Assembly (NCBI GenBank): GCA_026388075.1
Contig: JAPLKN010000029.1
Location: forward strand, 1 to 49,883
DNA length: 49,883 nt
Direction: 5' to 3'
Origin: Elusimicrobiota bacterium
GTDB taxonomy: Bacteria > Elusimicrobiota > Endomicrobiia > Endomicrobiales > JAPLKN01
The notes under the pieces are model-generated. The model did not search any database. It saw only the letters and a list, made by a program, of their open reading frames with translations, and was not told the origin of the DNA. The translations under genes were made by a program, and so were the position numbers. Shown here in pieces: positions 2,709-12,560 of this stretch (position 1 is its first letter; each line of letters opens with the position of its first letter).

Positions 2709-2737
2709 TTGAAATTTTCTTAAAAAATTGGTATGTT
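2709..2737 (+). promoter_or_regulatory. Candidate sigma70 promoter of the histone gene
   Basis: TTGAAA at 2709-2714 and TATGTT at 2732-2737 are separated by 17 bases. The pair lies about 65 bases upstream of the histone-fold ORF in otherwise gene-free DNA. It was judged by eye only. Confidence 0.5.
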
Positions 2738-2800
2738 AGTTGTCAAAATAAATAAGCCCGCCGAAAAAACTAGGCGAGGTACGTCAAACGGAGGAAGCAA

Positions 2801-2980
2801 ATGGCAGAAACACTCGTAGTAGTAAGCAAAGTAAAAAAGATGGTAAAAGAAGCGGGATTTCGCACAGGAGCGGATTATATAGCTTCAATTTCGGCGAAAG
2901 TGGAAGAAATGGTAAAAGCATCAATTGAGAAAGCAAAAACAGTCGGTAATAAGAAAACACTTGGCGCTGAGGACATGTAG
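2801..2980 (+). CDS. Bacterial histone-fold protein
   Basis: A 59-residue ORF with a strong ribosome binding site (GGAGG at 2790-2794, six bases before ATG). The protein reads MAETLVVVSKVKKMVKEAG, then a long helix (ADYIASISAKVEEMVKASIEK), then AKTVGNKKTLGAEDM. The pattern of a short helix, a loop with R, a long central helix, a loop with a K-K-T-L motif and a terminal E-D start of a last helix is the single histone fold of archaeal HMf-type histones. The N-terminus closely resembles the short bacterial histones known from Bdellovibrio (Bd0055 type), as I recall them. By analogy it would dimerise and bind or coat DNA. The K-T positions correspond to the L2 loop that contacts DNA. It is monocistronic with its own promoter. 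A search of structure-based histone profiles would settle the family. Confidence 0.8.
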   Translation: MAETLVVVSKVKKMVKEAGFRTGADYIASISAKVEEMVKASIEKAKTVGNKKTLGAEDM

Positions 2981-3345: not shown

Positions 3346-3423
3346 GTGTATAGATGCCGAATTTATAATAGTTTTGTTAATTCCAGCATAAAAAATGACT
3401 GCTGGAATTTTTTTATTATATGA
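3346..3423 (+). CDS. Putative 25-residue leader peptide of the tps operon
   Basis: A GTG at 3346 stands four bases after a run of six G (AAAGGGGGG, 3333-3341). The same G6 plus four-base spacing precedes tpsA at 5117-5127. The frame reads MYRCRIYNSFVNSSIKNDCW and a few more residues, then ends in TGA at 3421-3423. That stop overlaps the ATG of tpsB (ATGA). The ORF runs right through the intrinsic terminator at 3379-3414. tpsB has no ribosome binding site of its own, so translation coupled to this leader would explain its expression, and ribosome progress through the leader could open the terminator stem. The peptide has no run of a regulatory amino acid. This is a hypothesis based on geometry alone. 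Confidence 0.45.
   Translation: MYRCRIYNSFVNSSIKNDCWNFFII
3379..3414 (+). terminator. Intrinsic terminator / possible attenuator before tpsB
   Basis: AATTCCAGCA (3379-3388) and TGCTGGAATT (3400-3409) form a perfect 10-bp stem. The run of seven T at 3408-3414 completes an intrinsic terminator. It ends five bases before the tpsB start codon, so it cannot serve an upstream gene without also affecting tpsB. The leader ORF crosses it. Confidence 0.7.
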
Positions 3424-5075
3424 AACTTAAAATAAACATACTATTGATACATATCATGAGAGCCTGCATTTTATCAGCTTTATTATTAATTTCAATATTA
3501 AACACAACTTATGGGTTAACCCCGGATGAACAGCGCGCTTTGGAACAACAAAAGGTAATTGAGCAAAAAGAATCCATGGAAAAACAAAGCCAGGAACTCC
3601 GTAAAATACAGGATGAAATTGAGCTAAAGCGGAAAACCAAAGAGCTTGAAGCTCCAAAGCCTGAACGATTGAGAAAATCGGATATCAGGGAACTGCAAAG
3701 AAAACTGCAAAATTTATACCTTAATCACGGATATATCTCGGCCAGAGTATATCTTGACATAAAAGACCCGCTACCGAACACGCTGAAGTTCACAATTCTG
3801 GAAGGCACCATTGAAAATATCTATTTCGCAGACCCCAATCAAGGAAAAATGCCCATCCGCACGGCGTTTCCCCGGTTAAGAAACAAAACTCTTAATATTC
3901 GCGATATTGAACAGGGGTTTGAACAAATGAACCGTTTGCAGTCAAATAACGCGACTATGCAGATTAAACCCGGAAAAACTGACGGCGGGGCCGAAATTGA
4001 AATCATGAATACCCCCGGGCGCAGGACCAGGGTATCTTATGGAGCGAACAATTCGGGAACCGAATTGACGGGACAGAACAAACATTTCCTGGATCTTCTC
4101 GGTGAAAACCTGTTTAGGCTAAACGAGATGCTGTCCCTGAATTATGGAAGAGGTTTTGAAGATAACGACAGGAAATATGCAAGAAATTACGGCTCGTCAT
4201 TAAGCGTTCCGCTGGGGTACTGGACGTTTGATTTTAATTACAATGCATCCGAATACCTCGCCACAATTCAGGGAATCAGCGGTAATATTTTCTCTAAAAA
4301 TGATTACAATAATTTAAGTTTTTCTGTTGACAGGGTTTTGTCAAGAGCCAGAAGGCACAAAATAAACGCGGGCCTTGGGCTTACCAGCAAGGAATCGAAA
4401 GGTTATCTTAACGGTGTTAAGTTAGATGTTAGCAGTAGGAATCTTATCCCGATGTCTGTTTATGCCTCTCACCTGATATTTTTGCCGGGCGGTCTGCTTT
4501 CGTCCAGGGTAAGTTACATTCATGGGCTTGATATACTGGATGCTCAAGAAGATAGGGCCAATTTGGCAGAAGGCCAGCCGAAAGCTCAATTTCAGGCAGT
4601 TTCATTGAACGAATACTTCTCGTATCGTTTCGCTTTGCCCTATACAAACATTCCGTTAACGTACAGCATAAATTTAACCGGCCAGTATTCTTGGGATGAT
4701 TTGTTCAGTTCGGAACAATTCACGCCGAACGTGCGAGGGTACAGGGAAGGCGGCATATGTGGCGAAAGTGGCGCAAGCGCGAGCAATGATATTCAAACTC
4801 CCCTTATAGGCGTTCTGCCGTTTAAAAACAAAACCGCTCGGTCAATAATAACAAAATTTTCGTTAAACTGCTTTTATGACAAAGGGTTCGTTCAGCATAA
4901 AACCTACGGTGGGAAAGAACATATTTCAGGCTGGGGATACGGGATTTCCGGCAAATTATATGATATAATTAATATGAACATTTACGTTTCTAATCCGTTA
5001 GAAGCGCCGTCAAACGTAACAAAAGAAAGAAACGCATTCAATATGAGCTTGAACATAGTATTACATTTGGTGTAG
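3420..5075 (+). CDS. TpsB-type outer-membrane transporter (ShlB/FhaC/CdiB family)
   Basis: The 551-residue protein secretes its TpsA partner across the outer membrane. A signal peptide (ILSALLLISILNTTYG) is followed by a charged, Q/E/K-rich alpha-helical region (residues about 35-85), a POTRA domain (RELQRKLQNLYLNHGYISAR ... LEGTIENIYF, residues about 90-140), a second POTRA-like part and a beta-barrel to the C-terminus. LNHGYISARVYL is typical of the family POTRA. The barrel ends with alternating hydrophobic residues (MSLNIVLHLV), although the last residue is valine rather than the usual phenylalanine. Length fits the family (about 550-600). The start is uncertain: ATG 3420 overlaps the leader stop (ATGA), and an alternative ATG lies at 3456. 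Neither has a ribosome binding site. tpsA follows after 51 bases. Confidence 0.9.
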   Translation: MKLKINILLIHIMRACILSALLLISILNTTYGLTPDEQRALEQQKVIEQKESMEKQSQELRKIQDEIELKRKTKELEAPKPERLRKSDIRELQRKLQNLYLNHGYISARVYLDIKDPLPNTLKFTILEGTIENIYFADPNQGKMPIRTAFPRLRNKTLNIRDIEQGFEQMNRLQSNNATMQIKPGKTDGGAEIEIMNTPGRRTRVSYGANNSGTELTGQNKHFLDLLGENLFRLNEMLSLNYGRGFEDNDRKYARNYGSSLSVPLGYWTFDFNYNASEYLATIQGISGNIFSKNDYNNLSFSVDRVLSRARRHKINAGLGLTSKESKGYLNGVKLDVSSRNLIPMSVYASHLIFLPGGLLSSRVSYIHGLDILDAQEDRANLAEGQPKAQFQAVSLNEYFSYRFALPYTNIPLTYSINLTGQYSWDDLFSSEQFTPNVRGYREGGICGESGASASNDIQTPLIGVLPFKNKTARSIITKFSLNCFYDKGFVQHKTYGGKEHISGWGYGISGKLYDIINMNIYVSNPLEAPSNVTKERNAFNMSLNIVLHLV

Positions 5076-5126
5076 GTTTCCTAACTGCAGATGTGAGCGG
5101 GAGAACCCCGTTCGCAGGGGGGCAGT

Positions 5127-8100
5127 ATGAACAGGAAAGAAGTTCTTCTACGCAAAGTTACGGCTGTGGCAACTGCAGTGTTTTTTGTTGTTGCTCAAAT
5201 GCCATTACAGGCAGCAGGGATAACGGCTGACGGCCAGACAAACACGACCATTGACGTTACGTCAAACGGGACTCCAATGGTCAACATTGCGCAGCCCAAC
5301 GCGCAGGGATTGTCGCATAACACCTACTCCGATTTTAACGTTGACCCGAATAACCTCGTAATAAACAACTCAAACCACCTAACCGGCGTTTCCCAGACAG
5401 GCGGATATGTTGTCGGAAACCCCAATTTAATCGGAAAAACCGAAGCAAATGTAGTTCTTAACGAAGTTACAAGTAACCGGATAAGTAACTTAAACGGCTA
5501 CATAGAAATGTACGGCAAAGCGGCTGATTTTATCCTTGCTAATCCCAACGGCATTGCCGTTGCGGGAGCCGGTTTTATAAACACCCCTCGCGCAACTCTC
5601 GTTACGGGCACGCCGAACATAGTCAACGGCATGGTTAGCGATTTCGCCCTTTCCCCCACGGGCGCAATATCCATAACCGGCAGGGACGTCCCCGGCCTTA
5701 CAAACCTTGGTTTGGACACTCAATCGGTGGATTTGGCAACTCTTGTATCGCGCGTAATAACCGTTTCAGGTGGCATATACGGCAAAAACGTGCATCTGCT
5801 TTCGGGTAACGATAAATACAGCTATCAGACAAACACGGTATCATCAACCGGGCAGCCGCTTGTTCCTCTTAACACGCAGTTCGGGGTTGACTCATCGGCG
5901 CTTGGCGGAATGTACGCAGGCCGGATAACGATTGTAGCTAACGAAGCGGGGTTTGGCGTAAGAACTGCAGGTGATTTAGTTTCTGATGTAGATGACATTT
6001 CTATAACCTCAAAAGGCGGTATTGAATATTCCAAAGCTTATGCCCGGAGAAACTTGACCGTCCAATCCGTTAATGGCGATGTGGCTAACGCCGATTACAG
6101 TTTTGCAGGAAACGATATCTCAATTTCAGGTAAAAACGTTGCAAGTAAGTATATGAACGCGTCAAACAACATTTCCGTACGGTCAGAAAACAATACAACG
6201 TATGGAACAGCGGAAGCTAAAAATGTAACGGTAAATGCCGGGAACGCGATTACAAACACAAGCGCTACAACGGCGCTGGAAAGTATTACATTAAAAGGAA
6301 AAGATATTGAAGCAAAAGAATTAACTTCAGGACTGGATTTGTCGTTAATTGCAGAAAATTCGTTTACAAACCATGGAAACACCCTATCTTATGGCGATGC
6401 CAGTATAACCGCAAAATCATTAATCCTTGACCCGTCTTACAAGTTTACCGCTCACAAAAATTTAAATCTGACTACGGAAACTTTTGATAATGAAAGCACG
6501 TTCCTAGCCGGGCAAAACATTACAATGAATGCTACAGAAATGACAAACCGCGGCAGCATACAGGCCTACGGAAACGTGCTTATAGACGGGACTGATATTG
6601 AAAACAAGACTTCGGGTCATTTGTATGCGGGAGAAACATTATCTCTTACTGCAACAGGCTCTATAACGAATAATGGCATAGCAGAAGGCGATAGCACAGA
6701 TGTTTCAGCCACGGTAATAACAAATAACGGAAAAATTAACGCGCTTACCGGTACACTGAGCGTTTCCGGCAACACCATAGCCAACAATACCGGCGCTGAA
6801 ATGAATTCTAACGGCACAATGAACTTAACAGCGGCAAATACGTTAATCAATAATGGCAAGATCACTTCAGAAGGCGATTTGAACCTGACCGCAGATACCC
6901 TGGTTTCAAACAATTTATTGCTCTCCGGAGATGATATCAATATGAATGTAAGGGACGCGGTAAATAATTCCGAGATAGCGGCTTATAACAATATAAATAT
7001 CAACGCAGCGGGAAACGTAACCAACAACGGGACCGGGCTCTTGCTTGCAAATAACAATTTAAACATATCCGCGAACAACTTAACAAATTCGCCGAACGGA
7101 TACATATACTCCGGTAATGATTCGCTTTTCCGGATAAGTGGCACTTTATACAATAATCAAGGTCTGATTTATGCCGAAAGAAATATGATAATGCGGGGAC
7201 AGGGCGATGAAACGTCAAAAATGGCAGTGTTGACAAACAACGCGGGCGAGATATCGGCAAAAACCGGCGATTTAACGATAAATGCGAATACAATAAATAA
7301 TTTGAGTATAGACAATTGTGCCGTTCCTCCGGGCTCATTTACGGTATATCAAACAGGAGGGCCACAGTATCCGCCAGACCCTAATATTGCCGGCACTGGA
7401 GAACCTGCTCCCAGAACTTATTCTGTATATTCAAACGTATATGCGATTAAACAGGGTAAAATACTGGCGGGCAACAATATCACGATGAATGCGGGTACTG
7501 TCAGAAATAGAAGCAGTATCGTAGCCGCTCAGAACGGGCTAAATATCTACGCGGGAACAGTATATAATGAAAGGCCGGCGTTTTATGTCACATATACTTA
7601 TGAAGAAGGTATGTCGCCTACAACCGCCCTTTTGTACTCCAATACTCCCGCAGCAATGTCAGGCAGAACGGTAAACATCCAGGCTTCATTAATCTGCATA
7701 GACGCGCCAAATACGAACACTGGCACCATCCCTCAGATACGAGGCGGAACCGACAAGCAAATTGAACAAATTATAAACACGGGAATATTACAGCCTTTGA
7801 TTGTGAACGGAATATCCATAAACCCGGGCCCGGGTTTCAAACTTGCGAAGCCGGACGCAGGTTATCTGTTCCAGAATAATAATCGTTTTCTGAATGAATA
7901 CGAATTCACCGGCTCTGATTATTTTATTAAGCGCATGGGCTTTAACCCGAATACGGGCACGAAATTTTTAGGCGATGCCGTATATGAGCAAAAAATCATT
8001 CAGGACTCGATAATCGCGGCAACCGGAAACCACTATTTATACGACGGCATTGTAAACATGAATCAGCAGATGGAAGTCTTATATGATAATGCCGTTTCCA

Positions 8101-11100
8101 TGTCGGGAAAATTAGGGCTTGAATTCGGCAAGCCTCTCACTGAACAGCAAATCGCACAGCTTGATAAGGACATAATATGGTACATAGAACGCGAGATAAA
8201 CGGGTTTATTGTCCTTGAACCGGTGATGTATTTATGCAAAGAAACTAGAGATAAACTCGGAATGGAAGGAAGCACAATACAGGCAAAGGACGAAGTGAAA
8301 CTTGCTTCGGGCGACACGCTAAGAAACACCGGCACGATCAAAGGAAATAATGTTGTAATCACCGCTAAAAATAACATAGAAAACATAGAAGGAAGAATAG
8401 AGGCGCAGACAAACGTAGCGTTATTGGCAGGCAATGACATAAAAAATATCGGCGGAGCAATAAAATCATCCAATGATATGTTTCTTAAAGCAGGCGGGAG
8501 CATAACGAGCGAGAACATCAAACGGCGCTTAGTCAGTTACGATGGCTGGAAAGACGAAATTGTGTCACAAGGCAGTATAGAAGCAGGCAGAAAAGGGATT
8601 TTTGAAGCGGCAAAAGATTTCGGCATATTGGGGGGCTCAAGCCTTATGACGGGCTCGGACATGGTAATTAATACCGGTGGAAACATAAATATAACCGCAG
8701 AAAGGCTTGATGAAAAGCATGATACTTACGAGGGTTTATCGGAAAAAACGCGGTATCTTTTGGCGGCAGTCGGCGCGGGCGGTAATTTGCTTATGCGCTC
8801 AGGCGGGGACACAAACGTCATTGGCGGGAACGTAACGTCAACTTGTGACCTGGTGTTGAACGCAGGCGGTAACGTGAACATAGAGTCGGTGCAGGAAAGG
8901 GATTACAGCTACAGTCGAACTGAAGATAAGGACTTCTGGGGCAACAGCTCTAGCGAAGTAAAAGAAAGTGAAACAACGAGAAACATTGCGAGCAAGCTGA
9001 ATTCAAACAGAAATTTAACTATAACTTCCGGCGGCAATACCAAAATAAAAGGAAGCGATGTTGAAGCTTTAGGTAATATCGGCATTGAAACTAAGGGCAA
9101 TCTTGCCATAGTGTCAGGGCAGGACACTTCAAGCAGTTATTCCAAAAAAGAAAGCAGTAATATCATAGACAAAAATAAAGAGGAAACGGGAAACCTCAGC
9201 ATAAAACAAATAGCCTCAAACATTAAAGCGGGCGGAAACATATCAACAAAATCGGGCAATAATACCACCATAATTGCTTCCAATGTTTTAACCGAAAGAG
9301 GCGACGTTACGCTGGATTCAGCAGGAAATATAAATATGCTTGCGGGTGAAAACGTTACCGTCAAAAGCCGCAATCAGGACGAATCGGGCAATTTTGGTTT
9401 AAGCGAAAGCGAGACCCGTGAACGTAGTTCTAAAACAACCCTTGAAGCGTCAAACACGATTTCTGGCAGAAACATAAATTTAAACGCCAATAAGGATTTT
9501 ACGACTGTTGCTTCTAATGTCGGAGCCGCAGGCGACGCCGAAATAGAAGCCGAAAACGTAAACATATTAGCTGGCAATGAAAAAGACGAATACAGCTACT
9601 ACCACCGCGAAAAGGACCTTGCCGACATAAACATTGGCGCATTATATGGCTACGGCTGGGAGATTGGTGACGGGAAAGCAACCGTTGAGCTTGCAAAGTT
9701 TAATGAACGGGAAAATTACAGCGGCCATTATGACGAAACCGCAAAAGGTTCGGCAATAAACATTGGCGGTAATTTAAAGGTAACCACGTCAAAAGACGTG
9801 AACATAATCGGTTCCGATGCGGCGGCAGACAGCGCGGACGTCAATGCAAAGGGAGACATTAAGGTTGCATCAGCCGAAGAAAAACATACCTCATATGAAG
9901 GCAACAAAGAAACAAAGATAACGGTTTCAGCGGGGATAGGGAATGCGTACGTAGATGCATACAATGCCGGCGATGCCTTAATCAAAGCCGGGGAAGAAGT
10001 AAAAAAAGCAAACGAAGCATTAAACGAAATGAAACGTTTGGAAAAAGAAGGCAAAGCGAGCAAAAGCGCAGTAGAGGATGCCGAGCTAAATCTTGCGATG
10101 GCAACAGCGAATTTGGCGCAGGCAACAACATCACTTACAAGCAGCGCGGCAAGTGCGGCGACAGCGGCAAGCACTAGCCTGGGAACAGGTCTTTACGCGG
10201 ACATGACAGTTGAAAGAAACGGAACGGAAACAAGAACGGACAAAACGGCGCTGACCAATCGCGGAAGCGCGATTGTCACGAATAATAACCTTAATTTGAA
10301 ATCCGGTAATGATATTAACCAGAAAGGGAGCGCGGTATCATCAATCAATGGTGATATAAGCTATGAAGCTGACGGAAATATCGCGATAGTATCAAGCGAA
10401 GACAAATACAATGAGAAGACAAACACAAAAGAAGTAAATGAAAGGGTAAGTTATGGCTCTAATGGTGTAAATGCTAATGTAAACAGCGCGGAAAGCGAAA
10501 GCAGGGCAAACAGCGTAACAAACAATAACAGCATTGTATCGGCAGGTGGAAACATAAATATTAAATCAGGGAATGAAACAAAGATTCGCGGCGGAAACAT
10601 AGAAGGCGAAAACATAGAAGTAGACGCGGATAAATTAATTGTTGAAAGCGTGCAGGACAGTTATTATTCAAATTCAAAAGGCGGAAATACCGGAATAGGC
10701 CTGGGCAAGAACAGTGTTAATGCAAGTTATGGTGATTCCAGCAGTAAGGTTGATATGCAATGGGTGAATAATCAAAGCGGGATAGTGTCAAAAGGAAAGC
10801 TTGACATAAAAGCAACCGATGAAACAACGGTAAAAGGAGCGGTTATAGGAAGTCAGACAGGCGATATGGCCCTTGCGACAGGGAAATTGACGACAGAAGA
10901 TATAGATGATAGAAATGTAAGTGAAGCGCGCGGATTGAATATAAATACGAATATCGGCAAGACCGGCGACAGGCAAAAAGACAGCAGGTTTCCAAACGGG
11001 AGCACTACAGTAGGGTTGAAGAATTCCGCGAATGAAAAGGAGCAAATTACAAAAGCAACGATAGGCGAAGGAACTGTCATCCTGAACGAAGCGAATGACC

Positions 11101-12560
11101 TTTCCGGCGTAAACCGCGATCTGTCAAATACGCAGGAAACGACAAAAGACCAGATAACAAGAGCGCTAGACGGCAATGTAACTGTTGATAACCGCGTCTT
11201 TACTGAAGCGGGCCGTGAAGCGATAGTGAAGGACTTCAAGGATCTCGGGAAAAATGTAAATCAAATAGGCAAAGGGTTAACAAACAATGTTGTCGTTCAG
11301 TCTGTAAAGAACGCTGTAACTGATAAAAAGACTAACATAATAGAAGCGGTTAAGGATTATGTCAGGGACGATAAGAAAATACAAGAAATCCAGGAAAGTA
11401 AAGAGCTGACAGATAAACTTAATGGATTGACGAATGAAAATGCCGAAGGCGTGCAAGACAGCCTGCAAAAAACAGCCGATATTTCGGGCAAAGACGGGGG
11501 CTTTGAGGGTAATGTTGAATTGTATAACAACAGCGATGAAACCAAAGGGTACTCTTACAGCAAAAACGGTGAAAATACTGTAGGGGTAAATACAAGAAAG
11601 ACAGATTTGACAAATAGCGGGGAAATAATCAATACTGTATTCCACGAGACAACGAATGCAGATAAACACTCGCAAAATAACGACAGAACAGCTCTAAACA
11701 GAGGCGATACAGCCGAAGCGATATGGGGTTTAAAGAATTTCGGTAATGAGAACACGAACACGTTGACGAACGAGGAATGGAATTCCCTGAACGGTAACAG
11801 CAGCGTACTGAGAACAGGGAATAATAATAGGATAATAAATTATTTTAATGCCGGAAATAAGCTGGGTTTGTTGAACGAAATGACGTTTGGTTTATTGAAC
11901 GAAGTGACGATATCATTGCCAGGGTCTACTAAATTTATAACAGAGCCACCACAAATTGATTTCGGACCGTTAGTAACGCCTGTAAGTGATATTATATCCA
12001 AACCGCTTATAACGCCGGTAGCCCAACCGGACCCGAATGGGGGCAAAGAGATAACCCCGATATCCGAGCCGGATACAAAACCGCTTATCACGCCTGTCCC
12101 AACGGGAGATGAACTTGGAACAAGCAAGCCTTATATGGAGTTGGGCGAGGTAAGGCAGACAACGCCGGAAGAAGCGAATAAACCATATACGGATAAAGGT
12201 TGGGTAGCGCCATATAAAGAAGGAACAAGCGTAACAGATAACAAAGTAATAGGGGAAGAAAAATATGTAAGGTTGCATGGTGAGGATAATCAGGCCAATG
12301 AATGGCTTGTGAAGGAAAGCGAAATTACAAGATCGGATGGGACACTTATGAGCCCGGAGGAAATAAAAAATATATTATCTCTTCCCAGCATACCCACGAA
12401 AATATCTGATGTAGCAGTGCCCGATGGCACTATGGTTCGTAAAGGGACCGCAGCAGGAGTTCCTGAATGGAATACTAAAGGTGGAGGGGAGCAGCATGAG
12501 ATACTTGATGTGGACGAAATAAAAGCAAGTTGGTTTACCAACGAAAGGGGACTAAAATGA
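5127..12560 (+). CDS. TpsA exoprotein: filamentous-haemagglutinin / CdiA-like toxin
   Basis: A 2477-residue secreted giant. A signal peptide covers residues 1-30. The TPS secretion domain (about 31-280) carries the conserved NPNL (98-101) and NPNGI (139-143) motifs recognised by TpsB. A long beta-helix stalk follows, built of haemagglutinin-type repeats (T-N-N-G, G-N-I-N-I, A-G-N-D-I patterns), interrupted near 1619-1680 by an Ala/Glu-rich coiled segment. A pre-toxin block (about 2110-2250; HETTN, LNRGDTAEAIWGLKNFGN) leads to a proline-rich linker with two KPLITPV units. The C-terminal domain (about 2350-2477; LSLPSIPTKISDV, GTMVRKGTAAG, GGGEQ, WFTNERGL) resembles, from memory, a toxin domain found at the C-termini of other haemagglutinin and polymorphic toxin proteins; its activity is unknown to me. 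Six G stand four bases before ATG. The stop overlaps the immunity ORF, as in cdiA-cdiI pairs. Confidence 0.92.
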   Translation: MNRKEVLLRKVTAVATAVFFVVAQMPLQAAGITADGQTNTTIDVTSNGTPMVNIAQPNAQGLSHNTYSDFNVDPNNLVINNSNHLTGVSQTGGYVVGNPNLIGKTEANVVLNEVTSNRISNLNGYIEMYGKAADFILANPNGIAVAGAGFINTPRATLVTGTPNIVNGMVSDFALSPTGAISITGRDVPGLTNLGLDTQSVDLATLVSRVITVSGGIYGKNVHLLSGNDKYSYQTNTVSSTGQPLVPLNTQFGVDSSALGGMYAGRITIVANEAGFGVRTAGDLVSDVDDISITSKGGIEYSKAYARRNLTVQSVNGDVANADYSFAGNDISISGKNVASKYMNASNNISVRSENNTTYGTAEAKNVTVNAGNAITNTSATTALESITLKGKDIEAKELTSGLDLSLIAENSFTNHGNTLSYGDASITAKSLILDPSYKFTAHKNLNLTTETFDNESTFLAGQNITMNATEMTNRGSIQAYGNVLIDGTDIENKTSGHLYAGETLSLTATGSITNNGIAEGDSTDVSATVITNNGKINALTGTLSVSGNTIANNTGAEMNSNGTMNLTAANTLINNGKITSEGDLNLTADTLVSNNLLLSGDDINMNVRDAVNNSEIAAYNNININAAGNVTNNGTGLLLANNNLNISANNLTNSPNGYIYSGNDSLFRISGTLYNNQGLIYAERNMIMRGQGDETSKMAVLTNNAGEISAKTGDLTINANTINNLSIDNCAVPPGSFTVYQTGGPQYPPDPNIAGTGEPAPRTYSVYSNVYAIKQGKILAGNNITMNAGTVRNRSSIVAAQNGLNIYAGTVYNERPAFYVTYTYEEGMSPTTALLYSNTPAAMSGRTVNIQASLICIDAPNTNTGTIPQIRGGTDKQIEQIINTGILQPLIVNGISINPGPGFKLAKPDAGYLFQNNNRFLNEYEFTGSDYFIKRMGFNPNTGTKFLGDAVYEQKIIQDSIIAATGNHYLYDGIVNMNQQMEVLYDNAVSMSGKLGLEFGKPLTEQQIAQLDKDIIWYIEREINGFIVLEPVMYLCKETRDKLGMEGSTIQAKDEVKLASGDTLRNTGTIKGNNVVITAKNNIENIEGRIEAQTNVALLAGNDIKNIGGAIKSSNDMFLKAGGSITSENIKRRLVSYDGWKDEIVSQGSIEAGRKGIFEAAKDFGILGGSSLMTGSDMVINTGGNINITAERLDEKHDTYEGLSEKTRYLLAAVGAGGNLLMRSGGDTNVIGGNVTSTCDLVLNAGGNVNIESVQERDYSYSRTEDKDFWGNSSSEVKESETTRNIASKLNSNRNLTITSGGNTKIKGSDVEALGNIGIETKGNLAIVSGQDTSSSYSKKESSNIIDKNKEETGNLSIKQIASNIKAGGNISTKSGNNTTIIASNVLTERGDVTLDSAGNINMLAGENVTVKSRNQDESGNFGLSESETRERSSKTTLEASNTISGRNINLNANKDFTTVASNVGAAGDAEIEAENVNILAGNEKDEYSYYHREKDLADINIGALYGYGWEIGDGKATVELAKFNERENYSGHYDETAKGSAINIGGNLKVTTSKDVNIIGSDAAADSADVNAKGDIKVASAEEKHTSYEGNKETKITVSAGIGNAYVDAYNAGDALIKAGEEVKKANEALNEMKRLEKEGKASKSAVEDAELNLAMATANLAQATTSLTSSAASAATAASTSLGTGLYADMTVERNGTETRTDKTALTNRGSAIVTNNNLNLKSGNDINQKGSAVSSINGDISYEADGNIAIVSSEDKYNEKTNTKEVNERVSYGSNGVNANVNSAESESRANSVTNNNSIVSAGGNINIKSGNETKIRGGNIEGENIEVDADKLIVESVQDSYYSNSKGGNTGIGLGKNSVNASYGDSSSKVDMQWVNNQSGIVSKGKLDIKATDETTVKGAVIGSQTGDMALATGKLTTEDIDDRNVSEARGLNINTNIGKTGDRQKDSRFPNGSTTVGLKNSANEKEQITKATIGEGTVILNEANDLSGVNRDLSNTQETTKDQITRALDGNVTVDNRVFTEAGREAIVKDFKDLGKNVNQIGKGLTNNVVVQSVKNAVTDKKTNIIEAVKDYVRDDKKIQEIQESKELTDKLNGLTNENAEGVQDSLQKTADISGKDGGFEGNVELYNNSDETKGYSYSKNGENTVGVNTRKTDLTNSGEIINTVFHETTNADKHSQNNDRTALNRGDTAEAIWGLKNFGNENTNTLTNEEWNSLNGNSSVLRTGNNNRIINYFNAGNKLGLLNEMTFGLLNEVTISLPGSTKFITEPPQIDFGPLVTPVSDIISKPLITPVAQPDPNGGKEITPISEPDTKPLITPVPTGDELGTSKPYMELGEVRQTTPEEANKPYTDKGWVAPYKEGTSVTDNKVIGEEKYVRLHGEDNQANEWLVKESEITRSDGTLMSPEEIKNILSLPSIPTKISDVAVPDGTMVRKGTAAGVPEWNTKGGGEQHEILDVDEIKASWFTNERGLK

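Follow-up and report, generated by a model that had tools for sequence, protein, structure and literature searches.

The window analysed here, a contig of 49,883 nucleotides from an Elusimicrobiota bacterium [GenBank:JAPLKN010000029.1], carries a gene that, judged by sequence comparison and predicted fold, encodes a histone. The protein is likely an alpha3-truncated bacterial histone, nearest to the 'bacterial dimer' type represented by HBb (Bd0055) of Bdellovibrio bacteriovorus, and would act together with HU as a nucleoid protein that, as a dimer, bends DNA irrespective of sequence. The dimer state, DNA binding and bending, and abundance are all carried over from HBb. On this model, two chains would pair through their long alpha2 helices, and the alpha1 lysines with Ser9, together with the paired L1/L2 loops (R21-T22 and K52-T53), would grip the phosphate backbone at the minor grooves. 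Such a dimer would bind DNA without sequence preference and bend it, in the manner of a general nucleoid protein acting with HU. The relevant features are collected in Table 1.

The open reading frame at 2801-2980 is a real gene and not a chance ORF, because homologues are present in 97 of the 340 genomes of the phylum (E <= 0.001; 63 when only the 191 more complete genomes are counted) and because differences between orthologues fall mostly at third codon positions. Full-length, stop-free homologues occur across Elusimicrobiota. Its product, MAETLVVVSKVKKMVKEAGFRTGADYIASISAKVEEMVKASIEKAKTVGNKKTLGAEDM, has 59 residues and is basic (pI 9.3, charge +2.5). When the window gene was compared with 49 orthologues (50 distinct full-length proteins in all, with the window gene as reference), codon positions 1, 2 and 3 showed 536, 422 and 1962 differences, respectively, in comparisons that share ancestry and are not independent. 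These counts are reported instead of dN/dS because synonymous sites were saturated in most pairs. Two features of the preliminary description, the exact extent of the reading frame, which runs from ATG to TAG, and a strong ribosome binding site, are borne out. Of the 50 distinct orthologues, 40 have GGAGG, AGGAG or GAGGT between -18 and -5; among 147 control windows taken further upstream, such a motif occurs in 2. The strong promoter also claimed there is not supported, since the TTGAAA-17-TATGTT site is one of 3 such sites, and chance alone would give 3.7.

Table 1. Features of the histone gene and its product (window positions)
Feature	Position	Strand	Remarks
Histone gene	2801..2980	+	59 aa, ATG..TAG; ORF list and homologues
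Shine-Dalgarno site GGAGGA	2790..2795	+	ATG 5 bases downstream; motif in 40/50 orthologues
Promoter-like site TTGAAA-17-TATGTT, TG before second hexamer	2709..2737	+	not above chance
Alpha1 helix, residues 6-17, with S9, K10, K12, K13, K16	2816..2851	+	predicted model
Alpha2 helix, residues 24-48, expected dimer interface	2870..2944	+	predicted model; interface by analogy with HBb (PMC11317129)
L2 loop K51-K52-T53, expected DNA contact	2951..2959	+	HBb K52/T53 bind DNA (PMC11317129)
C-terminal residues E57-D58-M59, of which D58 would pair with K51	2969..2977	+	HBb R-D clamp (PMC11317129)

Several searches relate the protein to solved histones. In phmmer against solved structures, HBb/Bd0055 (8fvx/8cmp) came first, with E 3.6e-7 over residues 1-58, followed by HLp of Leptospira (3e-4) and 9f2c (0.012). 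The last is titled only as a hypothetical protein; it may be HTkC, though its code was not found in the paper searched for it. A family profile of 51 rows (50 orthologues and one divergent paralogue) again put HBb on top (3.6e-13), ahead of 9f2c (8.9e-10) and HLp (5.4e-9), and reached the archaeal histone HmvA only at 0.24. Neither Pfam nor NCBIfam matched the window protein to a histone; in particular, CBFD_NFYB_HMF (PF00808) did not appear above the Pfam cut-off. That Pfam histone model was touched weakly by just 3 of the 51 family members (best E 0.0061), and the whole-protein Pfam matches over these members were mostly due to chance. A PHROGs search with the window protein gave no meaningful match, and the viral contigs searched yielded no relative.

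The predicted structure agrees with this assignment. A model built from 7 rows was poor (mean pLDDT 62.5), so a second AlphaFold2 model was made from 55 rows; it is moderate, with mean pLDDT 69 and pTM 0.43. Helices are placed at residues 6-17, fitting alpha1 of a histone fold, and at 24-48, fitting alpha2, in line with the helix layout proposed in the preliminary description, but the model assigns no alpha3 helix. In Foldseek, four HBb chains and HLp made up the top 5 of 36 rows (probability 0.98-1.00, TM 0.71-0.73, E 0.017-0.12), and the probability fell to 0.09 at the next row. In VIA, HLp scored best (Z 5.3) and HBb reached 4.7, and eukaryotic proteins with a histone fold, MHF among them, were interspersed at 4.4-4.8; values this low mean little alone, the tool's own criterion treats HLp and HBb as tied, and absence of a family from the VIA list was given no weight as evidence.

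The silence of Pfam and NCBIfam on the window protein, and a Pfam histone model that touches 3 of 51 relatives at best E 0.006, could suggest that the ORF is spurious or that its product is a small helical protein unrelated to histones. This is very improbable, and in our judgement refuted, given the strong matches to solved histones in phmmer, the profile search and Foldseek, the conservation across the phylum and the third-position bias. The best matches are histones and not unrelated helical proteins, and the identification as a histone therefore stands, with sequence and predicted fold both grouping the protein with solved bacterial histones. What does not stand is a canonical nucleosomal class, since the class indicated is the alpha3-truncated, HBb-like one. 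Archaeal nucleosomal histones (CBFD_NFYB_HMF) share the histone fold and a K-K-T-x-x-x-E-D type ending with the window protein, whereas their alpha3 is much longer and the profile match to them is marginal (the HmvA value given above). The KKTL/ED ending noted earlier is indeed nearly invariant in the family.

Alpha3-truncated prokaryotic histones are recognized by a homologous histone fold and an alpha3 of only 3-4 residues (Schwab 2024). Homology to the solved members is indicated by phmmer, the profile and Foldseek. The window chain stops at M59, one residue past D58, and thus a long alpha3 is impossible; 29 of the 50 orthologues extend beyond residue 59. The resemblance to HBb, the top match in both sequence searches, comprises length, whole-length homology, the alpha1 lysines, the KT motif, the short alpha3 and the lack of tetramer residues.

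Within this class, a face-to-face (FtF) histone whose tetramers wrap DNA, as HLp of Leptospira perolatii does, is unlikely here, though several observations would suit it. HLp is a clear homologue in phmmer and in the profile search, shares the alpha3 histone fold, the L1 length and a similar alpha1 pattern, and has the best structural Z (albeit in a tie). Furthermore, a tree of 56 rows and 59 columns does not decide the placement: it groups the 50 Elusimicrobiota proteins in a single long-stemmed clade (98/97), and gives no support for where that clade attaches among HBb, HLp and 9f2c (46/44). The tetramer residues argue against this reading. HLp R49, S52, N53 and R55 align to A45, V48, G49 and K51 of the window protein, when the sequences are lined up by the clamp residue and by the Thr that stands two places after it. 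Thus the R, N and R of an FtF tetramer interface are replaced by A45, G49 and K51. All 50 orthologues have V, A or I at position 45, and position 49 is G in 45, A in 4 and N in 1. The replacement of R and N by A45 and G49 is what is expected of the bacterial dimer type, which lacks the FtF dimer-dimer residues. Finally, genuine R..N.R copies exist in the phylum as a separate paralogue.

This FtF-like paralogue emerged with a broader profile (A6), which matched 99 of the 340 genomes. In 21 genomes, by hand count of its matches, there is a divergent alpha3 histone, either as a second copy or alone (in G211 and G219 it is the only match). Five of these 21 were read (L007 and L075-L078), and all have the R...N.R pattern, with R and N at the positions of HLp R49 and N53. 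On this basis, there seem to be two alpha3 types in the phylum, of which the window's genome has only the one without tetramer residues; a single match was found there with the broader profile, too. In addition, two contigs of Proteobacteria MAGs (L045:3737-4195 and L046:3797-4195) encode proteins of 132-152 aa with two HBb-like histone domains in one chain, which makes them fused alpha3-type double histones.

The bacterial-dimer reading can also be examined residue by residue. S9, K12, K13, K16, R21, T53, E57 and D58 are invariant in the 50 orthologues, K10, K51 and K52 are kept in 49, and G23 in 48. The main DNA contacts of HBb are N22, R57, S9, T53, T8, S24, K10, K12, K52 and K16, with N22 and R57 making the most contacts in simulation; an R51-D58 clamp is described, and K52/T53 bind DNA (PMC11317129). 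Most of these DNA-facing residues, six of ten (S9, K10, K12, K16, K52 and T53), are kept in the window protein. The other four are changed (N22 to R21, S24 to G23, T8 to V8 and R57 to E57), and the last is a charge reversal fixed in all 50 orthologues. These changes count against the HBb-type reading. Considering the conservation of K51 (49/50) and D58 (50/50), the R51-D58 clamp would become K51-D58. In terms of the HBb-type RKTxxxD motif, the alpha1 lysines and the T are present, K takes the place of the R of RxTxxxxD in 49 of 50, and the D is D58 throughout. Unlike in HBb, L1 is one residue shorter; the stretch from alpha2 to KT is one residue longer in the Elusimicrobiota family than in HBb, HLp and 9f2c, with a gap position that is set by the alignment.

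According to PMC11317129, the contact residues are conserved in relatives including Elusimicrobiota. The present sequences fit this statement only in part, four of the ten positions being changed. The extra residue before the KKT loop, the K-D in place of the R-D clamp, and the Glu at HBb Arg57 are possibly new details, fixed or nearly so in the clade. Such lineage-wide changes at contact positions could mean that the histone-fold protein has drifted to another DNA geometry, a filament or bridging, owing to its lengthened L2 region and the reversed charge at E57, and a filament was also how the first HBb-DNA structure was interpreted (PMC10627809). We regard this as quite improbable: the core lysines and the KT motif are kept, and later work replaced the filament interpretation of HBb by one of bending (PMC11317129, PMC11390915).

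The gene neighbourhood varies among lineages. In the window, msrAB lies upstream of the histone gene, and an FhaC/ShlB-type transporter and a 2477-aa ORF lie downstream. These neighbours were considered as an explanation of the gene and rejected, since no other examined locus has msrAB or FhaC-type neighbours. The transporter and the repetitive 2477-aa ORF that follows, which may be its exported partner, are a probable two-partner secretion pair (3420-12560). The scan of named genomes gave 37 loci, 33 labelled Elusimicrobia/-ota or Endomicrobia/-ia/-iales, 2 labelled only 'bacterium' and 2 Proteobacteria. Several of these end too early to judge the neighbours; nuoA is found downstream on the same strand in 21 of the 37 (L012-L014, L017-L019, L023-L029, L031-L036, L038 and L039), usually with further nuo genes next. 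Between the histone gene and nuoA there is a Methyltransf_28 gene (PF02636) in three scanned loci and a UbiE-type methyltransferase gene in a fourth. Two loci from the window's order (L020 and L021) have rex upstream and rpsB, tsf and pyrH downstream. The histone-nuo linkage may be only old gene order. A more far-reaching idea, which we consider doubtful, is that the Elusimicrobiota histone represents an alpha3 subclass of its own (extra residue, K-D clamp and Glu57) that shapes DNA unlike HBb and HLp, and that in many lineages the gene is tied to the complex I operon, its dosage or action perhaps coupled to the energy state.

The distribution within the phylum is uneven. The window's own genome has one histone copy, and 6 of 39 near genomes, its own included, have an orthologue at E <= 0.01. 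The other five orthologues are 69-85% identical, and one of these genomes (G001) has a second, distant copy. By family, histones were found in 0 of 76 genomes of f6 (which belongs to the window's order), 0 of 90 of f15, 2 of 59 of f16, and 95 of 115 of all others together, as tallied by hand from the match lists, with the family of G213 and G216 taken from handle order. The broader profile, run on the 340 genomes, still gave nothing in f6 or f15. Incomplete assemblies explain some of the absences. HU (PF00216) is present in 314 of the 340 genomes, and the window's own genome has two HU genes; therefore the histone coexists with HU. Conversely, most genomes that lack the histone retain HU, including most of the 225 genomes of f6, f15 and f16, only 2 of which have a histone. 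The window genome differs in this respect from HLp-bearing Leptospira, which were reported to be without HU (PMC12701072).

The persistence of histone genes in Elusimicrobia has been described before (PMC10627809), and Elusimicrobiota are named among the carriers of bacterial dimer histones in a survey that also mentions IHF histones in this phylum (PMC11390915). Since these two surveys already report Elusimicrobiota histones, the window gene adds to a known kind; the presence of a histone, which the preliminary description had valued as informative, is real but already in print. In the portions of these surveys available to us, it is distribution rather than biochemistry that has so far been reported, and a biochemical study of an Elusimicrobiota histone was not found in the open-licence papers searched. 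By analogy with HBb, the window histone probably bends and compacts DNA. Its genome is a clear example of a histone and HU occurring together in one bacterium. The phylum-wide set of sequences reveals which HBb contact residues can change, and the clades that lack the gene allow histone-bearing and histone-free nucleoids to be compared in nature.
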